In this document: piece by piece, positions 49 to 9,223 of the stretch
How the letters are laid out: the number at the start of each line of letters is the position of its first letter
How positions within the stretch are numbered: position 1 is the stretch's first letter
From: Deinococci bacterium
GTDB lineage: Bacteria > Deinococcota > Deinococci > Deinococcales > Trueperaceae
Assembly: GCA_030149325.1 (NCBI GenBank)
Contig: JASBRS010000062.1
Coordinates: 1 to 38,716, forward strand
Direction of reading: 5' to 3'
DNA: 38,716 bases
The notes under the pieces: model-generated
Told to the model about the DNA's origin: nothing
Databases searched by the model: none
What the model saw: the letters and a program-made list of their open reading frames with translations, nothing else
Program-made: the position numbers and the translations under genes

Positions 49-755
49 CACAGGGCGTCCGGTACCAGCACCGCGGCCGCCAGCACGACCGGCGCGGTCT
101 CGGCGCGCAGGATGCGCGCCCCCAGACGGATCGGCCGCGCCCCCCGGGCGCGCAGGGCGGCGACCTCGTCGTCCGCCAGCCCCCCCTCGGGGCCGGTGAC
201 CAGCGTCAGCCGCTCGGGCGGGCCCCCGGTGAGCGCCACGCGCAGCGTGGACTCGGCGTCCGGACACGCCACCAGGGCGCGGCCGTCGAACGTCAGCTCG
301 CCCAGGGCGACGGGATCCACCACCTCGGGCACGAGGCTCCGGCGCGACTGCTTGGCGGCCTCCTCGGCCACCCGGCGCAGCCTCACCAACTTGGTCGGGG
401 CCAGCGACACGGCGTCCGCGCGCCGCGCCACGTACGGTCGGAAGCGGACGACGCCCAGCTCGGTCCCCTTGCGCACCACCTCGGCCAGCTTGTCCCCCTT
501 GAGCAGCGCCACCGCCAGGGTGAGCTCGATGGCGGCCTCGGCCGTTCCGCGGACGGGCGCGTCCAGCTCGATCTCCACGCCCTGCGGCCCGGCGGTCACC
601 ACCCGCCCGCTCGCCTCCAGCCCGCGGCCGTCGAAGGCCTCGATCGAGCTTCCCTTGCGGACCCGCAGGACGTCGCGAAGATGGTGCGCCTCCGCGCCGG
701 TCACCGTCGTGCGCCCCGCGGCGAGCTCGGGGAGCAGCACCCGGTGCGTCCTCAC
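48..755 (-). CDS. rsmE: 16S rRNA m3U1498 methyltransferase RsmE
   Basis: Predicted SPOUT-family enzyme that uses S-adenosylmethionine to methylate N3 of U1498 in 16S rRNA of the 30S subunit. The 235-residue length is typical. The N-terminal part reads THRVLLPE and AHHLRDVLRVRKG, the small RNA-binding PUA-like domain. The C-terminal part carries the trefoil-knot SAM motifs TGPEGGLADDE and LGARILRAETA, which are diagnostic for RsmE; the KGTELGV and AKQSRRS motifs lie between. The GTG start at 755 is chosen because it overlaps the prmA stop by 4 nt (GTGA) and begins the conserved domain. The frame stays open further upstream, but that part overlaps prmA and reads as low-complexity Arg/Gly/Pro. 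Pairing of prmA with rsmE is a common bacterial arrangement. Confidence 0.95.
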   Translation of the reverse strand: MRTHRVLLPELAAGRTTVTGAEAHHLRDVLRVRKGSSIEAFDGRGLEASGRVVTAGPQGVEIELDAPVRGTAEAAIELTLAVALLKGDKLAEVVRKGTELGVVRFRPYVARRADAVSLAPTKLVRLRRVAEEAAKQSRRSLVPEVVDPVALGELTFDGRALVACPDAESTLRVALTGGPPERLTLVTGPEGGLADDEVAALRARGARPIRLGARILRAETAPVVLAAAVLVPDAL

Positions 756-1537
756 CGCGGGACCTCCACCTCGACCAGCACCCACTCCCCTTCGTGCCGC
801 AGGCGGGGCACGGCGCCCGCCGGAAGCGCCCGCTCCACCAGGTGCGAGAGGCGCGCCAGCACCCCCGTCAGCAGCAGCCTCCCGCCGGGGACGACGCGCT
901 CCAGGTAGGCCGCCATCAGCGTCACGTGGACCTCGGCGTAGAGGTTCGCCACCACCACGTCGAAGGTGCGGGGCAAGGCGGGGTGGTCGAGGCTGCCCTC
1001 CAGGAAGCGGGCCCGCGAGCGGTTGAGCGCCGCGTTCGCGCGGGCGACCGGCACGGTGGCGGCATCGACGTCGACGCCCAGCGCCGAGGCGGCACCGAGG
1101 CGATCCGCTGCGATCGCCAGGATCCCCGAGCCCGCCCCGACGTCCAGCACGCTCCGCCCCACCAGGTCGAGGTCGGACAGCGCCGCCAGCGCCAGGCGGG
1201 TGGTCTCGTGGTGACCGGTCCCGAAGGCGGTCGCCGGATCGAGCCACACCACCTGCTCGCCGGCCTGCAGGGCCGGATGACGGTGCGTCGGCGCGATCAC
1301 CAGCGGCCCGACCCGCACTGCCTCGAGCCCCTCGCGGTAGGCGCGCACGTAGTCGACCTCGTCGACGCTCTCCCAGGCCCCCTCGAGGTCCAGCGGCAGC
1401 TCCTCCGGGAAGTACGCCAGCGTCTCGGGGCCCTGCTCCCCTGCGGTCTCCATCGCCCCGGTCGCCCCCAACGCGAACAGCCGCGCCAGGACCGGGCTCT
1501 CGTGGTCGAGCGCGCCCGGCATGCGGAAGGCCTTCAA
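752..1537 (-). CDS. prmA: Ribosomal protein L11 methyltransferase PrmA
   Basis: Class I SAM-dependent methyltransferase that trimethylates lysines and the N-terminus of ribosomal protein L11. The 261-residue length resembles the Thermus enzyme. An N-terminal substrate-recognition domain (about residues 1-60) and linker lead to DPATAFGTGHHETT (about 100-113), the PrmA signature. SAM motif I is VLDVGAGSGILAIAA (about 130-144), and VVANLYAEV is the motif IV region. The start is TTG at 1537: the upstream gene's stop is part of a GAGGGG ribosome-binding site 6 nt before this TTG, and the protein then begins MKAFRMPG. It lies 10 bp after the fusion gene and overlaps rsmE by 4 nt, so the genes form one operon. 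Confidence 0.95.
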   Translation of the reverse strand: MKAFRMPGALDHESPVLARLFALGATGAMETAGEQGPETLAYFPEELPLDLEGAWESVDEVDYVRAYREGLEAVRVGPLVIAPTHRHPALQAGEQVVWLDPATAFGTGHHETTRLALAALSDLDLVGRSVLDVGAGSGILAIAADRLGAASALGVDVDAATVPVARANAALNRSRARFLEGSLDHPALPRTFDVVVANLYAEVHVTLMAAYLERVVPGGRLLLTGVLARLSHLVERALPAGAVPRLRHEGEWVLVEVEVPR

Positions 1538-1547
1538 GCGCGACCCC

Positions 1548-3260
1548 TCACAGCGCCGCCTCCACTTCGCTCACGCGCGCGTCGCGGGTGACGATCTGGA
1601 ACCCGAGGCGCCCCCCCTCACGCAGGTAGAACTCGATGTCGGCCGTCCTCGTGGACGCACCCAGGCTGCGGCGGTCGTAGGCGCGCGCCGCCGTCATGAT
1701 CATCGTCTCGGCCAGGCAGGCGGGCACGTGGCCTTCGCCGAAACGGATGTCGATCTCCGAGCGCATGGCGCCGGGCGGCCGCACCACCCCGCCCGGCACG
1801 AGCTGCACCCCCGGCACCTCGCGGACGCTCTCGTGGACGTCGGCGGGACGGCCCAGGTCGAACACCCAGGCACCGGGGCGGATGTGTTCGGGGAACAGCA
1901 CCGGCCGCGGATCGGAGGTGGCGGTGAACACCAGATCGGCGCCGGCCACCGCCGCCAGATCGGTGGTCGCCAGGACCTCGGTGTCGGGGAACTTGCGGCG
2001 CAGCGTCTCCGCGCTCCGGCGGACGCGCTCGGCGTCGCGGCCCACCAGCACCACCTCGCCGACCTCGCCCGCGATCATCCGCGCCACCCCGAACGCCACC
2101 ACCCCGTTGGCGCCGACCACCGCCGCGGTCGACCGCGCCAGCGAACCGCCCTCGGCCTCGAAGCGCGCCAGCAACCCCGGCACCGCCGCACGGACGCTGG
2201 CCGCCGTGTAGGCCCCGCCGTTGGTCACGGCGATCTCCGGGACGGCGCGCTGCACCTCCGCCCCCTTGTCGCCCACCGTCGACCAGAAGGCCCCCAGGCC
2301 CACCGCCTCGGCGCCCAACTGATGCGCCAGGCGCGCGCCCTGGATGGCCATACGCAACGCCACCTCGGGGTGGCTGCCGAACTGGTCGGGGAGCAGCGGC
2401 CCCCCGATCAACAGCACCCGCAGCCTCCGCCCGTCGGGGAGCCGGATGCCCTCGATCACGCCCTGGCTCTGCGGTCGCATGCGCAGCAGCAGCCGCCGCA
2501 GCCAGGCCTCGGGCAGCAAGCCGCGCGCCGCCAGGTGACGCAGCCAGCGCTGGCTGGGGGGCTGCCACAGGTCGTCGATCGTCATGGGATGCAGCAGGAA
2601 GGCGCACAGCAGGGCGTCGGGCTCCAGCCCCCGCACCGCCGGCGGGTCGCCGAGCCTGGCCTCGGTGCCGTCGCGGACGCGCGCGATCGCCGCCTTCTGG
2701 CGCCACCCCGCGGCCGCGGCGAGCACCGCCACCGCCAGCGCCGTGAGCGTGGTGGTGGCGCCCGACACCCAGGCGATGGCCACGCCCCCGACCAGGGTCA
2801 CGAGGCCCGCCACCGTGGCCAGCGCCACGTAGCGCCGAGCCGCCAGCACCGCGGCGTAGGCCCACACGGGCGCGGCCAGCACCAGCCACGGCAGCGCACC
2901 GGCCGCCTGGAGCCCGGCGAGCAGCCCCACCAGCACGCCGTTGCCGCGGCCGCGCGGCGGGTGGCGCCGTCCCGGCAGCGGCAGCGGGTAGAGGTGGCCG
3001 AGCATCACGCCCAGCGCCCCCAGCACCGCCACGGGGGCCGCCGCCACCGCCAAGGCGCCCTTCAGCACGTCGAGCACGAAGGCGGCCAGGGCGACCGGCG
3101 CACCCACCAGGCGGTAGACGTTCTCCACCCCGATGAGGTGGGGATTGACCTCGGCCGGCTCCATCCCGGAGGCCCACCGCACCAGCCACGAGCCGAGCGG
3201 CAGGGAACCGATCAGCCAGGCCACGGCGAAGCCCAGGGTCGCGCTCGCGATCATCGTCAT
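1548..3260 (-). CDS. PlsY-like acyltransferase fused to acyl-ACP-reductase-like domain
   Basis: 570-residue two-domain protein. Residues about 1-185 are a multi-pass membrane domain resembling PlsY (acyl-phosphate:glycerol-3-phosphate acyltransferase): GSLPLG at 18-23, LDVLKG at 63-68 and GHLYP at 88-92 fit its motifs. The usual GSGNIGATN loop is replaced by NPHLIGVENV and the GGKG loop by RGRGNG, so acyltransferase activity is uncertain. Residues about 215-570 resemble cyanobacterial long-chain acyl-ACP reductase: HPMTIDDL near 224, a Rossmann GANGVVAFG at 383-391, and ACLAETM at 514-520, whose Cys515 aligns with the catalytic thioester cysteine of that family. A GFQIV segment near the end also fits. 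ATG 3260 is preferred because a TAGAAT box lies 8 nt upstream; ATG 3254, 9 nt after GGGAG, is the alternative. It is first in the operon with prmA and rsmE. The two-domain call is firm; the in vivo reaction is inferred. Confidence 0.75.
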   Translation of the reverse strand: MTMIASATLGFAVAWLIGSLPLGSWLVRWASGMEPAEVNPHLIGVENVYRLVGAPVALAAFVLDVLKGALAVAAAPVAVLGALGVMLGHLYPLPLPGRRHPPRGRGNGVLVGLLAGLQAAGALPWLVLAAPVWAYAAVLAARRYVALATVAGLVTLVGGVAIAWVSGATTTLTALAVAVLAAAAGWRQKAAIARVRDGTEARLGDPPAVRGLEPDALLCAFLLHPMTIDDLWQPPSQRWLRHLAARGLLPEAWLRRLLLRMRPQSQGVIEGIRLPDGRRLRVLLIGGPLLPDQFGSHPEVALRMAIQGARLAHQLGAEAVGLGAFWSTVGDKGAEVQRAVPEIAVTNGGAYTAASVRAAVPGLLARFEAEGGSLARSTAAVVGANGVVAFGVARMIAGEVGEVVLVGRDAERVRRSAETLRRKFPDTEVLATTDLAAVAGADLVFTATSDPRPVLFPEHIRPGAWVFDLGRPADVHESVREVPGVQLVPGGVVRPPGAMRSEIDIRFGEGHVPACLAETMIMTAARAYDRRSLGASTRTADIEFYLREGGRLGFQIVTRDARVSEVEAAL

Positions 3261-3274: not shown

Positions 3275-3385
3275 GGCTGCCGTCGGTCGCCGCCGCCCCT
3301 GGCGATGCGACGCGGGCACCCCGCACGACGACGTGCGAGCCCCCTCGCCCGCTCCCGGCCCGCCGCGCGACCGGCGGAGGTTACG

Positions 3386-4726
3386 ATGTCGGACGTGGAG
3401 AGCCGCACCCCGCCCCACAACCTCGAGGCCGAACAGAGCGTCCTGGGCAGCATCCTACTGGACAACGAGACGTATGCCGCGCTCGAGGGGATGCTCGTCC
3501 CCGACCACTTCTACAAGGAGGGGCACCGGAAGATCTTCCGCGCCATCGAGCGGCTGTTCCGGCGCGGCGACCCCATGGACCTGGTGACGCTCACCGAGGA
3601 GCTGAGGCAGTCGGGCGAGCTCGAGAGCGTCGGCAGCGTGCCGTACCTCATCGGCCTCGCCGACGCCGTGCCTACGGCGGCGTACGCCGACAGCTACGCC
3701 CGCATCGTGCTCGAGAAGGCCACCCTGCGGGAGCTCATCGGCGCCAGCGGTCGCATCATGCAGCTCGCCTACGACCAGGCCGGGCCCCTCGACGAGGTGC
3801 TCGACCAGGCCGAGCAGCACATCTTCGACCTGGCGACGAAGAAGCGGCGCACCCACTTCGAGGGCATGACCAGCCTCGTCACCGAGACCTTCGCGCACAT
3901 CAACGAGCTGTTCGCCAATCCCGACCCGGTCTCCGGGCTGCGGACGGGGTTCCGCGAGCTCGACAGCATGACCGCGGGCTTGCAGCCGTCCAGCCTCAAC
4001 GTCCTGGCCGCTCGCCCCTCCATGGGCAAGACGGCGTTCGCGCTCACCATCGGCCTCAATGCCGCCCTGCGCGGCGACATCAGCGTGGGCATCTTCTCCC
4101 TGGAGATGTCGGCGGTGCAACTGGTGACGCGCATGCTCTGCTCGGAGGCGCGCGTCGACATGAGCCGCGTGCGCAACGGGCAGCTCTCGGATCGCGACTT
4201 CCAGCGCCTCGCCGACACCGCCGGCCGCATGTCGGAGGCCCGCATCTTCATCGACGACAACCCCGACCTGACGGTGATGGAGTTGCGCTCGCGGGCGCGC
4301 CGGCTGATGGCCGAGCACGACCTGGGGCTGCTCGTCGTCGACTACCTGCAGCTGATGTCGGCGGGCAGCCGGAGCACCAGCGAGAACCGCCAGCAGGAGA
4401 TCTCGGCCATCTCGCGCGGGCTCAAGGCGCTGGCGCGCGAACTCGACATCCCGGTGCTGGTGCTGTCGCAGCTCTCGCGCGCGGTCGAGGGCCGACCCAA
4501 CAAGCGGCCCATGCTCTCCGACCTGCGCGAGTCCGGGGCGATCGAACAGGACGCCGACCTGGTCATGTTCATCTACCGCGACGAGTACTACGACCCGCAG
4601 TCCGAGAAGCACGGCATCGCCGAGATCATCATCGGCAAGCAGCGCAACGGCCCCACCGGCACGCTCGAGCTGCAGTTCCACAACGCCCACGTGCGCTTCA
4701 ACGACCTCGCCCGTTCGACCCCCTGA
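3386..4726 (+). CDS. dnaB: Replicative DNA helicase DnaB
   Basis: Hexameric 5'-3' helicase that unwinds DNA at the replication fork and recruits primase. The 446-residue length is standard. The N-terminal DnaB domain (about 10-110) begins PPHNLEAEQSVLGSIL. The RecA-like ATPase domain (about 180-445) has Walker A ARPSMGKTA (209-217), Walker B LLVVDYLQL (315-323), SQLSR (361-365), the SDLRESGAIEQDAD block (378-391) and KQRNGPTG (418-425), which supplies the inter-subunit arginine finger. The ATG at 3386 is chosen because GGAGG ends 5 nt upstream; the frame is open for another 27 codons upstream, but that part is not DnaB-like. No intein is present. It is divergent from the plsY-like fusion gene and, unlike many genes here, has a clear Shine-Dalgarno sequence. 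Confidence 0.97.
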   Translation: MSDVESRTPPHNLEAEQSVLGSILLDNETYAALEGMLVPDHFYKEGHRKIFRAIERLFRRGDPMDLVTLTEELRQSGELESVGSVPYLIGLADAVPTAAYADSYARIVLEKATLRELIGASGRIMQLAYDQAGPLDEVLDQAEQHIFDLATKKRRTHFEGMTSLVTETFAHINELFANPDPVSGLRTGFRELDSMTAGLQPSSLNVLAARPSMGKTAFALTIGLNAALRGDISVGIFSLEMSAVQLVTRMLCSEARVDMSRVRNGQLSDRDFQRLADTAGRMSEARIFIDDNPDLTVMELRSRARRLMAEHDLGLLVVDYLQLMSAGSRSTSENRQQEISAISRGLKALARELDIPVLVLSQLSRAVEGRPNKRPMLSDLRESGAIEQDADLVMFIYRDEYYDPQSEKHGIAEIIIGKQRNGPTGTLELQFHNAHVRFNDLARSTP

Positions 4727-6838: not shown

Positions 6839-8026
6839 ATGCCCTCAATGCGCGAGCGCCTGGCGCGCATGCTCAGCCCCAGGATCGAGGCGGTCGGCCT
6901 AGAGGTGGGCACCAGTGCGCTCAAGGTGGTGGAGTTGCGGCCAGGGAATCCGCCGAACCTGGTTGCGATGGGTGTCCGCCCCATGCCGCCTGGTCTCATC
7001 CAGGACGACCAGGTGGTCGACGCGCATGGGCTGGCCGAAGAGATCAAAGCCCTCTTGGACGAAGCGGGGATCCGCAAGCGCTTCACGGTGGCGGCCGTGA
7101 GCAACCGGCAAGCGATCACCCGAAACATCCACGTCCCCAAGATGACCATGCAGGAGCTCGACGAGGCGATCAAGTGGGAGGCGGAACGCTACATCCCCTT
7201 CCCGATCGACGAGGTCGTGCTCGACTACTACGTCCTCGACAATCCCGAGGACATCGAGGAGGGCGGCCAGCTCGAGGTGGTCATCGCGGCCGCGCGCCTC
7301 GATCAGGTGACGAACCAGGTGGAGTACCTCAAGCAGGCGGGGCTCGAGCCCCTGGTGCTCGACGTCAAGCCCTTCACCCTGCTGCGCTCGCTCAAGGGCT
7401 CGCTGCTCGGCGAGCACCTCACCAAGACCACGTTGTCCGGCACCACCTACACCGAGGCGAACGAGATCGGCGTGGTGCTCGAGATCGCGGCCTCCAACAC
7501 CACGATCACGCTGGTCCGCGGCGAGCGCGTGCTGATGAACCGCAACATCGGCGTCAGCGGCGACGACTTCACCGCCGCCATCCAGCGCTCCTTCGGCCTC
7601 GACTTCGACAGCGCCGAGGACGTCAAGCTGGACTACGGCACCGCCACCATCCCGACCGAGGACGAGGAGGAGCTGCTGAACTTCGACGCCAAGCGCGAGC
7701 AGTTCAGCCCCAGCCGCGTCTACGAGTCGCTCAGGCCGGTGCTTGTCGACCTCACCACCGAGATCCGGCGGAGCCTCGAGTTCTTCCGGGTCCAGACCGG
7801 AGACGCCACCATCAGCCGCATGGTGGTCACCGGGGGCGGCGCCAAGTTGCGCGGGCTCCCCGAGGCCATCGGCGATGCGCTGGGCTTCCGGGTGGAGCTC
7901 GGCGACCCCTGGCTCACCGTCCACTACGACGAGAACCGCTTCGACAGCCAGTTCCTGCAGAAGATGGGTCCCGAGTTCTCCGTTCCCCTGGGTCTGGCCT
8001 TGAGAGGGGTGGCGGGCGTTGATTAA
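6839..8026 (+). CDS. pilM: Type IV pilus assembly ATPase-like protein PilM
   Basis: Cytoplasmic actin-fold protein that binds the N-terminus of PilN and links the PilN/PilO membrane complex to the pilus motors. The 395-residue length is normal. Visible family features are VGLEVGTSALKVVEL (the phosphate-1-like loop, about residues 18-32), the IHVPKMTMQELDEAIKWEAE segment with YIPFPIDE next to it, the SRMVVTGGGAKLRGLPE nucleotide-binding segment (about 321-337), and a C-terminal LGLALRG. The ATG lies 5 nt after GAGGAGGAG. It overlaps pilN by 8 nt and leads the five-gene pil operon. In Thermus this operon is needed for piliation, twitching and DNA uptake. Confidence 0.95.
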   Translation: MPSMRERLARMLSPRIEAVGLEVGTSALKVVELRPGNPPNLVAMGVRPMPPGLIQDDQVVDAHGLAEEIKALLDEAGIRKRFTVAAVSNRQAITRNIHVPKMTMQELDEAIKWEAERYIPFPIDEVVLDYYVLDNPEDIEEGGQLEVVIAAARLDQVTNQVEYLKQAGLEPLVLDVKPFTLLRSLKGSLLGEHLTKTTLSGTTYTEANEIGVVLEIAASNTTITLVRGERVLMNRNIGVSGDDFTAAIQRSFGLDFDSAEDVKLDYGTATIPTEDEEELLNFDAKREQFSPSRVYESLRPVLVDLTTEIRRSLEFFRVQTGDATISRMVVTGGGAKLRGLPEAIGDALGFRVELGDPWLTVHYDENRFDSQFLQKMGPEFSVPLGLALRGVAGVD

Positions 8027-8630
8027 CGTCAACCTTCTTCCCAAGAACCTGCGGCGCGTACGCGAGCCCGGCTACTGGCGCCTGCTCGCCATCGTGTTCC
8101 CGCTGCTGGTGCTCGGCATCGCCTTCGTCTTCCAGATGTTCGCCTACCAGACCGAGCAGAACCTGCGTACCGAGAAGCAGGCCCGCAGCGACCAGCTGGC
8201 GCTCCTGCAGCCCTACCTGCGCGAGCAGCAGAGCCTGCTCCAGCGCCAGCGCGAGCTGAACCAGCTCATCTCCGTCGAGAAGGCCGTCCACCAGAACCGC
8301 ATCCTGTGGACGGGTGAGATCGCCGGCCTGCTGGAGACGCTGCCGCCGCGCGGTACCGGTGCGCAGCCCAACATCGACTTCAAGAGCCTCACCATGAGCG
8401 CCCTCAACCCGCCGCAGAGCAACCCCGACAAGTACGAGGGCAAGAGCGTGATCGCCGAGATGAACGTCAGCGGCGACGTCGCCGGACCCGACGTGCTGGC
8501 CCAGTTCATCCGCGCGCTCGAGAACTCCAAGAGCTATGGGGTCTCGTTCCACAACGCGGCGCGTCAGAACGAATCCGACCTCTACACCTACACCCTGACG
8601 GTAGGGGCCCTCGCCGGGAGCCAGCCATGA
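8019..8630 (+). CDS. pilN: Type IV pilus inner-membrane protein PilN
   Basis: Bitopic inner-membrane protein of the alignment subcomplex. Its cytoplasmic N-terminus carries the PilM-binding motif INVNLLPKNLR (residues 2-12), the hallmark of PilN. A single TM helix follows (about 22-46), then a periplasmic coiled coil (about 47-95) and a ferredoxin-like domain. The start is TTG, overlapping the pilM stop by 8 nt and preceded by a G-rich stretch (GGGGTGGCGGGCG); it is fixed by the INVNLLP motif that must follow immediately. The stop overlaps the pilO ATG (ATGA), so pilN and pilO are translationally coupled, as suits partners of a heterodimer. Confidence 0.93.
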   Translation: MINVNLLPKNLRRVREPGYWRLLAIVFPLLVLGIAFVFQMFAYQTEQNLRTEKQARSDQLALLQPYLREQQSLLQRQRELNQLISVEKAVHQNRILWTGEIAGLLETLPPRGTGAQPNIDFKSLTMSALNPPQSNPDKYEGKSVIAEMNVSGDVAGPDVLAQFIRALENSKSYGVSFHNAARQNESDLYTYTLTVGALAGSQP

Positions 8631-9223
8631 ACCTCGGCAACTTCAGCCTCCGCAACCTCCGTCAGCGCGACATCGCCATCCTGGCCATCGTCGTGACCAT
8701 CGCCCTGGGTCTGCTCTGGTACTTCTACATGTACCGCCCCACCCAGGACCGCATCTCGACGTTGCAGTCCGACATCGCGCAGCTCGAGACGCAGATCCAG
8801 CGCGGCGAGCAGGCCCGGCGCAACCTGCCGACCCTGCGAGCCGCCGTGGCCCAGCTCGAGGAGGACCGCCGCAACTTCCTGGCGCAGCTCCCCAAGGAGA
8901 GCGACATCTCCGGCCTGATCGACCAGCTTCGCGCATCGGCCAGTGACAGCCACGTGCTGGTCAACAGCTTCAGCCAGGGCGGCGGTCAGGACAAGGTGCA
9001 GGACGTGCGGCCGATCGGCTTCTCGGTAGCGACCACCGGCACCTTCGGTGAGACGATGGACTTCCTCGGCAAGCTCGAGGAGCTCCAGCGCTTCACCAAG
9101 ATCCACCAGGTCGGGCTCAACGTGAAGGGCAACGGCAGCGACAACCCCGACCTCAACGCCACCTTCAACTTCACGGTCTACGTCTACACGGGCAAGGATC
9201 CCGGAGGGGCGGCGGGACAGTGA
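8627..9223 (+). CDS. pilO: Type IV pilus inner-membrane protein PilO
   Basis: 198-residue partner of PilN. A short cytoplasmic N-terminus is followed by one TM helix (about 16-33), a periplasmic coiled coil rich in Gln/Glu/Leu (about 40-85), then a globular domain. FSVATTGTFGETMDFLGKLE (about 126-145) is typical of the PilO ferredoxin-like fold. The ATG overlaps the pilN stop by 4 nt and the TGA overlaps the next gene's GTG by 4 nt. It is known to form heterodimers with PilN that tie PilM to the PilP/PilW and PilQ layers. Confidence 0.93.
   Translation: MNLGNFSLRNLRQRDIAILAIVVTIALGLLWYFYMYRPTQDRISTLQSDIAQLETQIQRGEQARRNLPTLRAAVAQLEEDRRNFLAQLPKESDISGLIDQLRASASDSHVLVNSFSQGGGQDKVQDVRPIGFSVATTGTFGETMDFLGKLEELQRFTKIHQVGLNVKGNGSDNPDLNATFNFTVYVYTGKDPGGAAGQ

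Follow-up and report, generated by a model that had tools for sequence, protein, structure and literature searches.

What does a protein do that joins a PlsY-like membrane domain, the fold of a lipid acyltransferase, to a reductase of the acyl-ACP type? The question is raised by a gene in the window, as we call the whole stretch of 38,716 nucleotides that was analysed. The gene and its two parts are placed as follows.

1548..3260, minus strand: PlsY-AAR fusion gene, 570 aa, stop included, with the start ATG at 3260 and one open frame
2646..3233, minus strand: PlsY-like membrane domain, residues ~10-205 (PF02660 3e-23; fold match to 5xj5)
1551..2618, minus strand: AAR/TamH/PigE-type acyl-thioester reductase domain, residues ~215-570 (PigE model 1e-22, TIGR04058 1.4e-7; fold match to 6jzu)

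In Pfam, the PlsY family PF02660 matched residues 13-194 at 3e-23 (83.2 bits with a cut-off of 24.1) and the Rossmann model Shikimate_DH matched residues 372-487 at 5e-10. In NCBIfam, the PigE model NF053554 matched residues 288-536 at 1e-22 over its reductase part only, and its 80.3 bits missed the equivalog cut-off of 850 by far, as did the 31.2 bits (1.4e-7) of the long-chain acyl-ACP reductase model TIGR04058 with respect to 449.7. The PlsY equivalog TIGR00023 (1.8e-13) gave 50.7 bits with the whole protein and 54.7 bits with the N-terminal half, and its cut-off of 137.2 was missed as well. Since no NCBIfam model reached its equivalog cut-off, the assignments are made at the level of the family and not of the orthologue; on its TIGR04058 score the window protein is a relative of the cyanobacterial AAR, not an orthologue. 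PDB sequence matches of the fusion protein included PigE (4ppm), PlsY (5xj5) and AAR (6jzu/6jzq). An AlphaFold2 model was made of a relative, L035, and not of the window protein itself (16 aligned sequences; pLDDT 88, pTM 0.83). Foldseek matched its C-terminal part to AAR 6jzu with a TM of 0.76 by target over 357 columns and its N-terminal part to PlsY 5xj5 with a TM of 0.81 by target. The 570-aa reading frame is a true in-frame fusion of a PlsY fold with a full acyl-ACP-reductase-type domain, and because it occurs in more than 100 genomes of the phylum it is an effect neither of chance nor of assembly. The median identity of the other fusions to the window protein was 58% in the reductase half versus 41% in the PlsY half.

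The catalytic elements of the reductase half were located by alignment with AAR.

1716..1718, minus strand: codon of Cys515 (ACLAETM), equivalent of the catalytic Cys294 of S. elongatus AAR
2088..2114, minus strand: dinucleotide loop GANGVVAFG, residues 383-391, equivalent of AAR 162-GATGDIG-168

Cys515 was identical in all 110 other fusions and was also present in the aligned standalone relatives. It aligned to Cys294 of AAR, the acyl-enzyme chemistry of which is known (PMC7089970). The GxxGxxG loop reads GANGVVA: Ala takes the place of the third Gly, as in every Deinococcota fusion that was checked. The standalone relatives and the one fusion found in an Armatimonadetes metagenome-assembled genome (MAG), L201, have Gly there. 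Arg189 and Arg193 of AAR were retained in the Deinococcota fusions checked, and Tyr247 and Arg314 were not retained in the fusions. Profile matches, fold and the invariant Cys place the C-terminal half in the AAR/TamH/PigE thioester-reductase superfamily, and by analogy with these enzymes the fusion very probably works as an acyl-thioester reductase.

For the other half, the structure-defined residues of aaPlsY (PMC5700162) were mapped onto the fusions (n = 108). The phosphate of glycerol-3-phosphate is clamped in aaPlsY by Ser35, Arg45, Lys104 and Asn180, and Thr41 and His177 are further residues of the site (PMC5700162). The corresponding elements of the window gene are these.

3117..3146, minus strand: PlsY motif 1 loop NPHLIGVENV, residues 39-48, replacing GSGNVGATNV (alignment)
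3123..3125, minus strand: codon of Glu46, at aaPlsY Thr41 (contact to the acyl-phosphate carbonyl); Glu in 105/108 fusions
2994..2996, minus strand: codon of His89, at aaPlsY His92 (phosphate hole), retained; His in 108/108 fusions with a residue there
2943..2954, minus strand: RGRG, residues 103-106, at PlsY GGKG 102-105 (alignment)

Asp59, Lys62 and His92 of PlsY were retained in all 108 fusions, and the Gly102 position was Arg in all 108. The Lys104 position held Arg in 94 and Lys in 14 of them, the Ser35 position was mostly Pro, Ala or Val, and the His177 and Asn180 positions were variable. The window protein has Pro, Arg, Arg and Ala at the clamp positions Ser35, Arg45, Lys104 and Asn180, with Glu at Thr41 and Gln at His177, and it therefore does not carry the full clamp. 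With the glycerol-3-phosphate acyltransferase site altered in this way in Deinococcota, synthesis of LPA by the fusion is unlikely. The canonical PlsY of the same genome, L001, has Thr at the Thr41 position. The L201 fusion retains Ser35, Asn37, Arg45, His92, Lys104, Ser142, His177 and Asn180 and has Ser at Thr41; from this near-intact site we infer that the ancestral fusion had a more PlsY-like site, which was later changed in Deinococcota. The window's own genome encodes four PlsY-family proteins, L001-L004 (G000:C36, C96, C80 and C18), of which L001 is a standalone protein. The variant motif DGNPGATN was seen in L002, and other genomes with a second PlsY carry similar variants in that copy (L226-L232).

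The preliminary description of this DNA had proposed an in-frame fusion of a PlsY-like with an acyl-ACP-reductase-like domain, and the single frame, the profiles of both halves and the spread of the gene bear this out; GANGVVAFG and the cysteine lie where it had put them. The profile searches of each half and the structure prediction that it had suggested, the latter carried out on L035, gave PlsY and AAR matches both ways. Its altered acceptor loop proved real and family-wide, in much of the family as S-A/V-Y/H-N-L-G-x-E-N, and NPHLIGVENV itself is only the window's version. The altered acceptor site, with Glu for Thr41 and an eroded clamp, is in keeping with its suggestion that acyl transfer may be lost or changed.

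The fusion is a feature of the phylum. Protein searches gave a match in 110 of 111 Deinococcota genomes, and from our reading of the table 107 of them hold the fusion or fragments of it. The four genomes lacking it were G100 (96% complete, weak match only) and G073, G077 and G078 (67-77% complete). In a scan of named genomes, 69 fusion loci were found, belonging to Thermus, Meiothermus, Calidithermus, Trueperaceae, MAGs titled 'Deinococcales' or otherwise Deinococcota-like, and a single Armatimonadetes MAG, which was the only locus clearly outside Deinococcota by its title.

L201:2950-4641, plus strand: PlsY-AAR fusion of the Armatimonadetes MAG, 43% identity, on a contig of 127 kb with genes reading as tig and clpP close by

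The near-confinement of the fusion to Deinococcota, on which the preliminary description had asked for a survey, was thus observed with this one exception in Armatimonadota. In a quick tree of the reductase domain, which has long branches elsewhere, a branch with full support set the 18 fusions apart from the other sequences, and L201 diverged first among them. The fusion had no match in the plasmid collection. A search of the window's own whole genome with TIGR04058 gave no match at 1e-3; of the genomes used as controls, those of Deinobacterium chartae and Thermus composti were matched, and as Methanocaldococcus jannaschii was matched too, perhaps via glutamyl-tRNA reductase, that search says little on Deinococcaceae.

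The genes on either side of the fusion were read from their sequences.

752..1537, minus strand: PrmA-like methyltransferase, downstream at a distance of ~10 bases, same strand, with no sign of a lipid function
3305..4726, plus strand: DnaB-like gene, divergent upstream neighbour, with a likely start at about 3386

The PrmA-like downstream neighbour recurs in other Trueperaceae. Across Deinococcota the fusion had only housekeeping neighbours (PrmA-like, DnaB-like, ribosomal L20, IF3 and futalosine-hydrolase-like genes), so that within this phylum there is no operon clue to its function. Further along the window, at 6839-9223, open reading frames read as type IV pilus assembly-like genes (PilM/N/O), downstream of a DnaB-like and an FtsH-like gene.

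Clues came from other phyla, in which the reductase half occurred in three forms: as a standalone protein (~360 aa), joined to a class III aminotransferase (L078), or joined to a member of a conserved, uncharacterised family of ~300 aa, for which SLGSS is our own label. Joining of PlsY to the reductase was never seen in the sample outside Deinococcota, which comprised 279 genomes from a request for 400 relatives and was the single sample for the co-occurrence test. Loci of SLGSS include the following.

L127:2519-3418 = G000:C83:2525-3415, minus strand: SLGSS of the window's own genome
L125:7367-8266, plus strand: a further SLGSS gene

SLGSS was present in 106 of 111 Deinococcota genomes, the window's own included, and also in G390, the Armatimonadetes MAG with the L201 fusion. 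It had no match in Pfam or NCBIfam and none better than E 0.21 among PDB sequences. Its AlphaFold2 model, a confident one (pLDDT 93), gave partial fold matches only, Rossmann-like or periplasmic-binding-protein-like, with TM <=0.45. At L070 the genes for SLGSS, a class III aminotransferase, a START-like protein and the reductase are consecutive and overlap or nearly do so, and at L072 SLGSS adjoins the aminotransferase with the reductase gene close by. A tandem pair of SLGSS genes directly before a reductase gene was seen at L063:5257-7072 (plus strand).

Among the 279 genomes, 24 encoded the reductase, 23 SLGSS and 21 both (Fisher 2e-26, and 4e-19 with families counted once; genomes of one family are not fully independent samples). 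An aminotransferase orthologue scoring above 300 bits was found in 18 of the 21 genomes with reductase and SLGSS versus 0 of 28 without them (p 1e-10); the 300-bit line was chosen after the scores had been seen and lies in a gap between 339 and above and 290 and below, with three exceptions at 224-270. One of these three carries the aminotransferase-reductase fusion L078. The co-occurrence of the three genes is very strong; it demonstrates an association and not a function. Within the 21 genomes of other phyla that have this module, no PlsY with the change of Thr41 to Glu was found, and canonical PlsY was present in 19.

In Deinococcota the aminotransferase follows the families. The module-type class III orthologue, counted from the score table, was present in 59 of 64 genomes of f4 and f5, the two Thermus-side families (f5 being Thermaceae and f1 Trueperaceae), and in none of the 47 other Deinococcota. 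Its scores exceeded 540 bits in the f4/f5 carriers versus at most 292 bits in the other 47. In trees, the Thermaceae-side enzymes clustered with the module aminotransferases of other phyla. The window's own Trueperaceae genome has the fusion and SLGSS, and the class III aminotransferases found in it were all of other kinds than the module clade. A divergent class III aminotransferase of ~490 aa (L096:1288-2745, plus strand; L254, L255, L256) was seen in 31 of the Deinococcota genomes that do not belong to f4/f5 and in no genome of these two families, a distribution complementary to that of the Thermaceae type; it is absent from the window's own genome and its position in the tree was unstable.

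The lipids of these organisms offer a use for such genes. In Thermus and Meiothermus the main phospholipid is an N-glyceroyl-alkylamine phosphoglycolipid, which is related to a lipid of D. radiodurans (PMC3035268, PMC3398001), and a lipid of this type was inferred for Oceanithermus from chromatographic behaviour (PMC3111992). A further paper, citing Bale et al. 2025, reports N-glyceroyl alkylamines beyond Deinococcota and lists Moorella thermoacetica with them (PMC13274423). The account of Truepera lipids makes no comparison with alkylamine lipids (PMC3072082). No relevant paper came from literature searches that paired PlsY with acyl-ACP reductase, nor from those that combined alkylamine, fatty aldehyde and transaminase.

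We propose with moderate confidence that the fusion is a membrane-tethered acyl-thioester reductase and that the fatty aldehyde it makes most likely serves to build the alkylamine chain of the N-glyceroyl-alkylamine phosphoglycolipids. Acyl-ACP, or some other activated donor, would load a long acyl chain onto Cys515 of the cytosolic C-terminal domain, and the thioester would be reduced by NAD(P)H to the aldehyde, in the manner of cyanobacterial AAR, TamH and PigE. The long aldehyde would be released at the membrane surface, where the PlsY fold would position the reductase and probably guide the chain. In Thermus and its relatives the class III aminotransferase would then aminate the aldehyde to the long-chain amine of the phosphoglycolipid, and SLGSS may perform another step of the same pathway. 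The PlsY half is best explained as an anchor in the membrane or a guide for the chain, because standalone reductases manage without PlsY and because the acceptor site is altered.

Co-occurrence and lipid distribution make amination of the aldehyde reasonably probable for the phylum as a whole, and less so for the window's own organism. Thermus and Meiothermus, which have the lipid, and also Calidithermus carried the fusion in the named scan. Against this role, no Deinococcus title occurred among the 69 named loci, yet Deinococcus makes the lipid (PMC3398001, PMC3035268), the scanned collection being one that may not include Deinococcus; and the module-clade aminotransferase is missing from the 47 Deinococcota outside f4/f5, the window's own genome among them. 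The housekeeping neighbours and the poor conservation of the third loop Gly and of AAR Arg314 also count against the proposal. The alkylamine link made in the preliminary description is supported in part: outside Deinococcota the reductase goes with class III aminotransferases by co-occurrence, operon and fusion, which is independent support, and Thermaceae have the orthologue, but the reductase is not limited to Deinococcota with alkylamine lipids, even if such lipids are by now reported from elsewhere (PMC13274423). That the missing aminotransferase, in the window's genome and 46 others, marks a different fate, in which the aldehyde is reduced in Trueperaceae or generally to fatty alcohol or long-chain 1,2-diols, would accord with a Truepera compound consistent with an iso-C18 1,2-diol (PMC3072082) and with perhaps small amounts of long-chain diols in Meiothermus (PMC3035268). 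We consider this fate unlikely in view of the strong co-occurrence of reductase, aminotransferase and SLGSS in other phyla, the L070 operon and the L078 fusion; nor did any alcohol- or diol-forming enzyme turn up in linkage, in searches that were not aimed at such enzymes.

The remaining readings differ in what they ask of the PlsY half. If it bound acyl-phosphate made by PlsX and passed the acyl group to Cys515, the fusion would be an acyl-phosphate reductase, which would suit the constant Asp59, Lys62 and His92 and the largely retained site of L201, with its Ser at Thr41. The Glu that replaces the carbonyl-contacting Thr41 should repel an anionic ligand, though, and relatives of the reductase exist without any PlsY part; we regard such channelling as improbable, and we found no support for the earlier suggestion that the acyl group is passed on or kept by the PlsY part. 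A wider scheme, in which reductase, aminotransferase and SLGSS make up an unrecognised core alkylamine-lipid pathway across many phyla and, in addition, the Deinococcota PlsY fold with its Glu has been repurposed to act on the amine, for example by D-glyceroyl transfer from 1,3-bisphosphoglycerate or a similar acyl phosphate, seems very improbable as a whole. The PF02660 score above the gathering cut-off and the PlsY fold could also mean that the fusion is still mainly a glycerol-3-phosphate acyltransferase, with a regulatory or inactive remnant at its C-terminus. This is hardly credible, for the clamp has lost conservation (Ser35, Lys104, His177 and Asn180) while Cys515 is invariant, conservation is higher in the reductase half than in the PlsY half and a separate canonical PlsY is encoded in the same genome.

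For the favoured reading, aldehyde formation by a membrane-tethered reductase, the interest lies in the third chain of the major Thermus phosphoglycolipid: these lipids are chemical markers of the lineage, and according to a paper of 2022 the enzymes for that chain in T. thermophilus had yet to be identified (PMC9636437). With one particular reductase, one particular aminotransferase and a new conserved family as candidates, the matter can be addressed by experiment in Thermus thermophilus.

Among known systems, PtTamH, the transaminase-thioester reductase of tambjamine synthesis in Pseudoalteromonas tunicata, shares with the fusion the AAR-type domain and the catalytic Cys, and it has a Rossmann loop, of which the Deinococcota fusions checked have a version with Ala for the third Gly. 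TamH combines this domain with a class III aminotransferase and converts C12-ACP to the C12 amine in vitro (PMC9594044), and the same kind of domain accompanies class III aminotransferases in the other phyla. Unlike the fusion, which has a PlsY membrane partner and is found phylum-wide, PtTamH is soluble, joined to its aminotransferase and encoded in a secondary-metabolite cluster. PigE, the reductase-aminotransferase of prodigiosin synthesis (4ppm), which is reported to reduce a thioester (PMC8341465), is the best curated-family and PDB match of the C-terminal half, but it has another domain partner, occurs in a different range of organisms and is expected to act on chains of a different length. 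Cyanobacterial AAR (6jzu) resembles the fusion in the fold of the whole domain, the equivalent of Cys294, Arg189 and Arg193; it has no PlsY domain, differs in the third loop Gly, Tyr247 and Arg314, and partners an aldehyde deformylating oxygenase to form alkanes. PlsY itself (PF02660; 5xj5) shares its fold, Asp59, Lys62 and His92 with the N-terminal half, whereas the fusion has Glu for Thr41, no Ser35, Arg for Gly102, mostly Arg for Lys104, variable residues at His177 and Asn180, and a reductase joined to it: a lipid acyltransferase fold that appears to have been put to another use.
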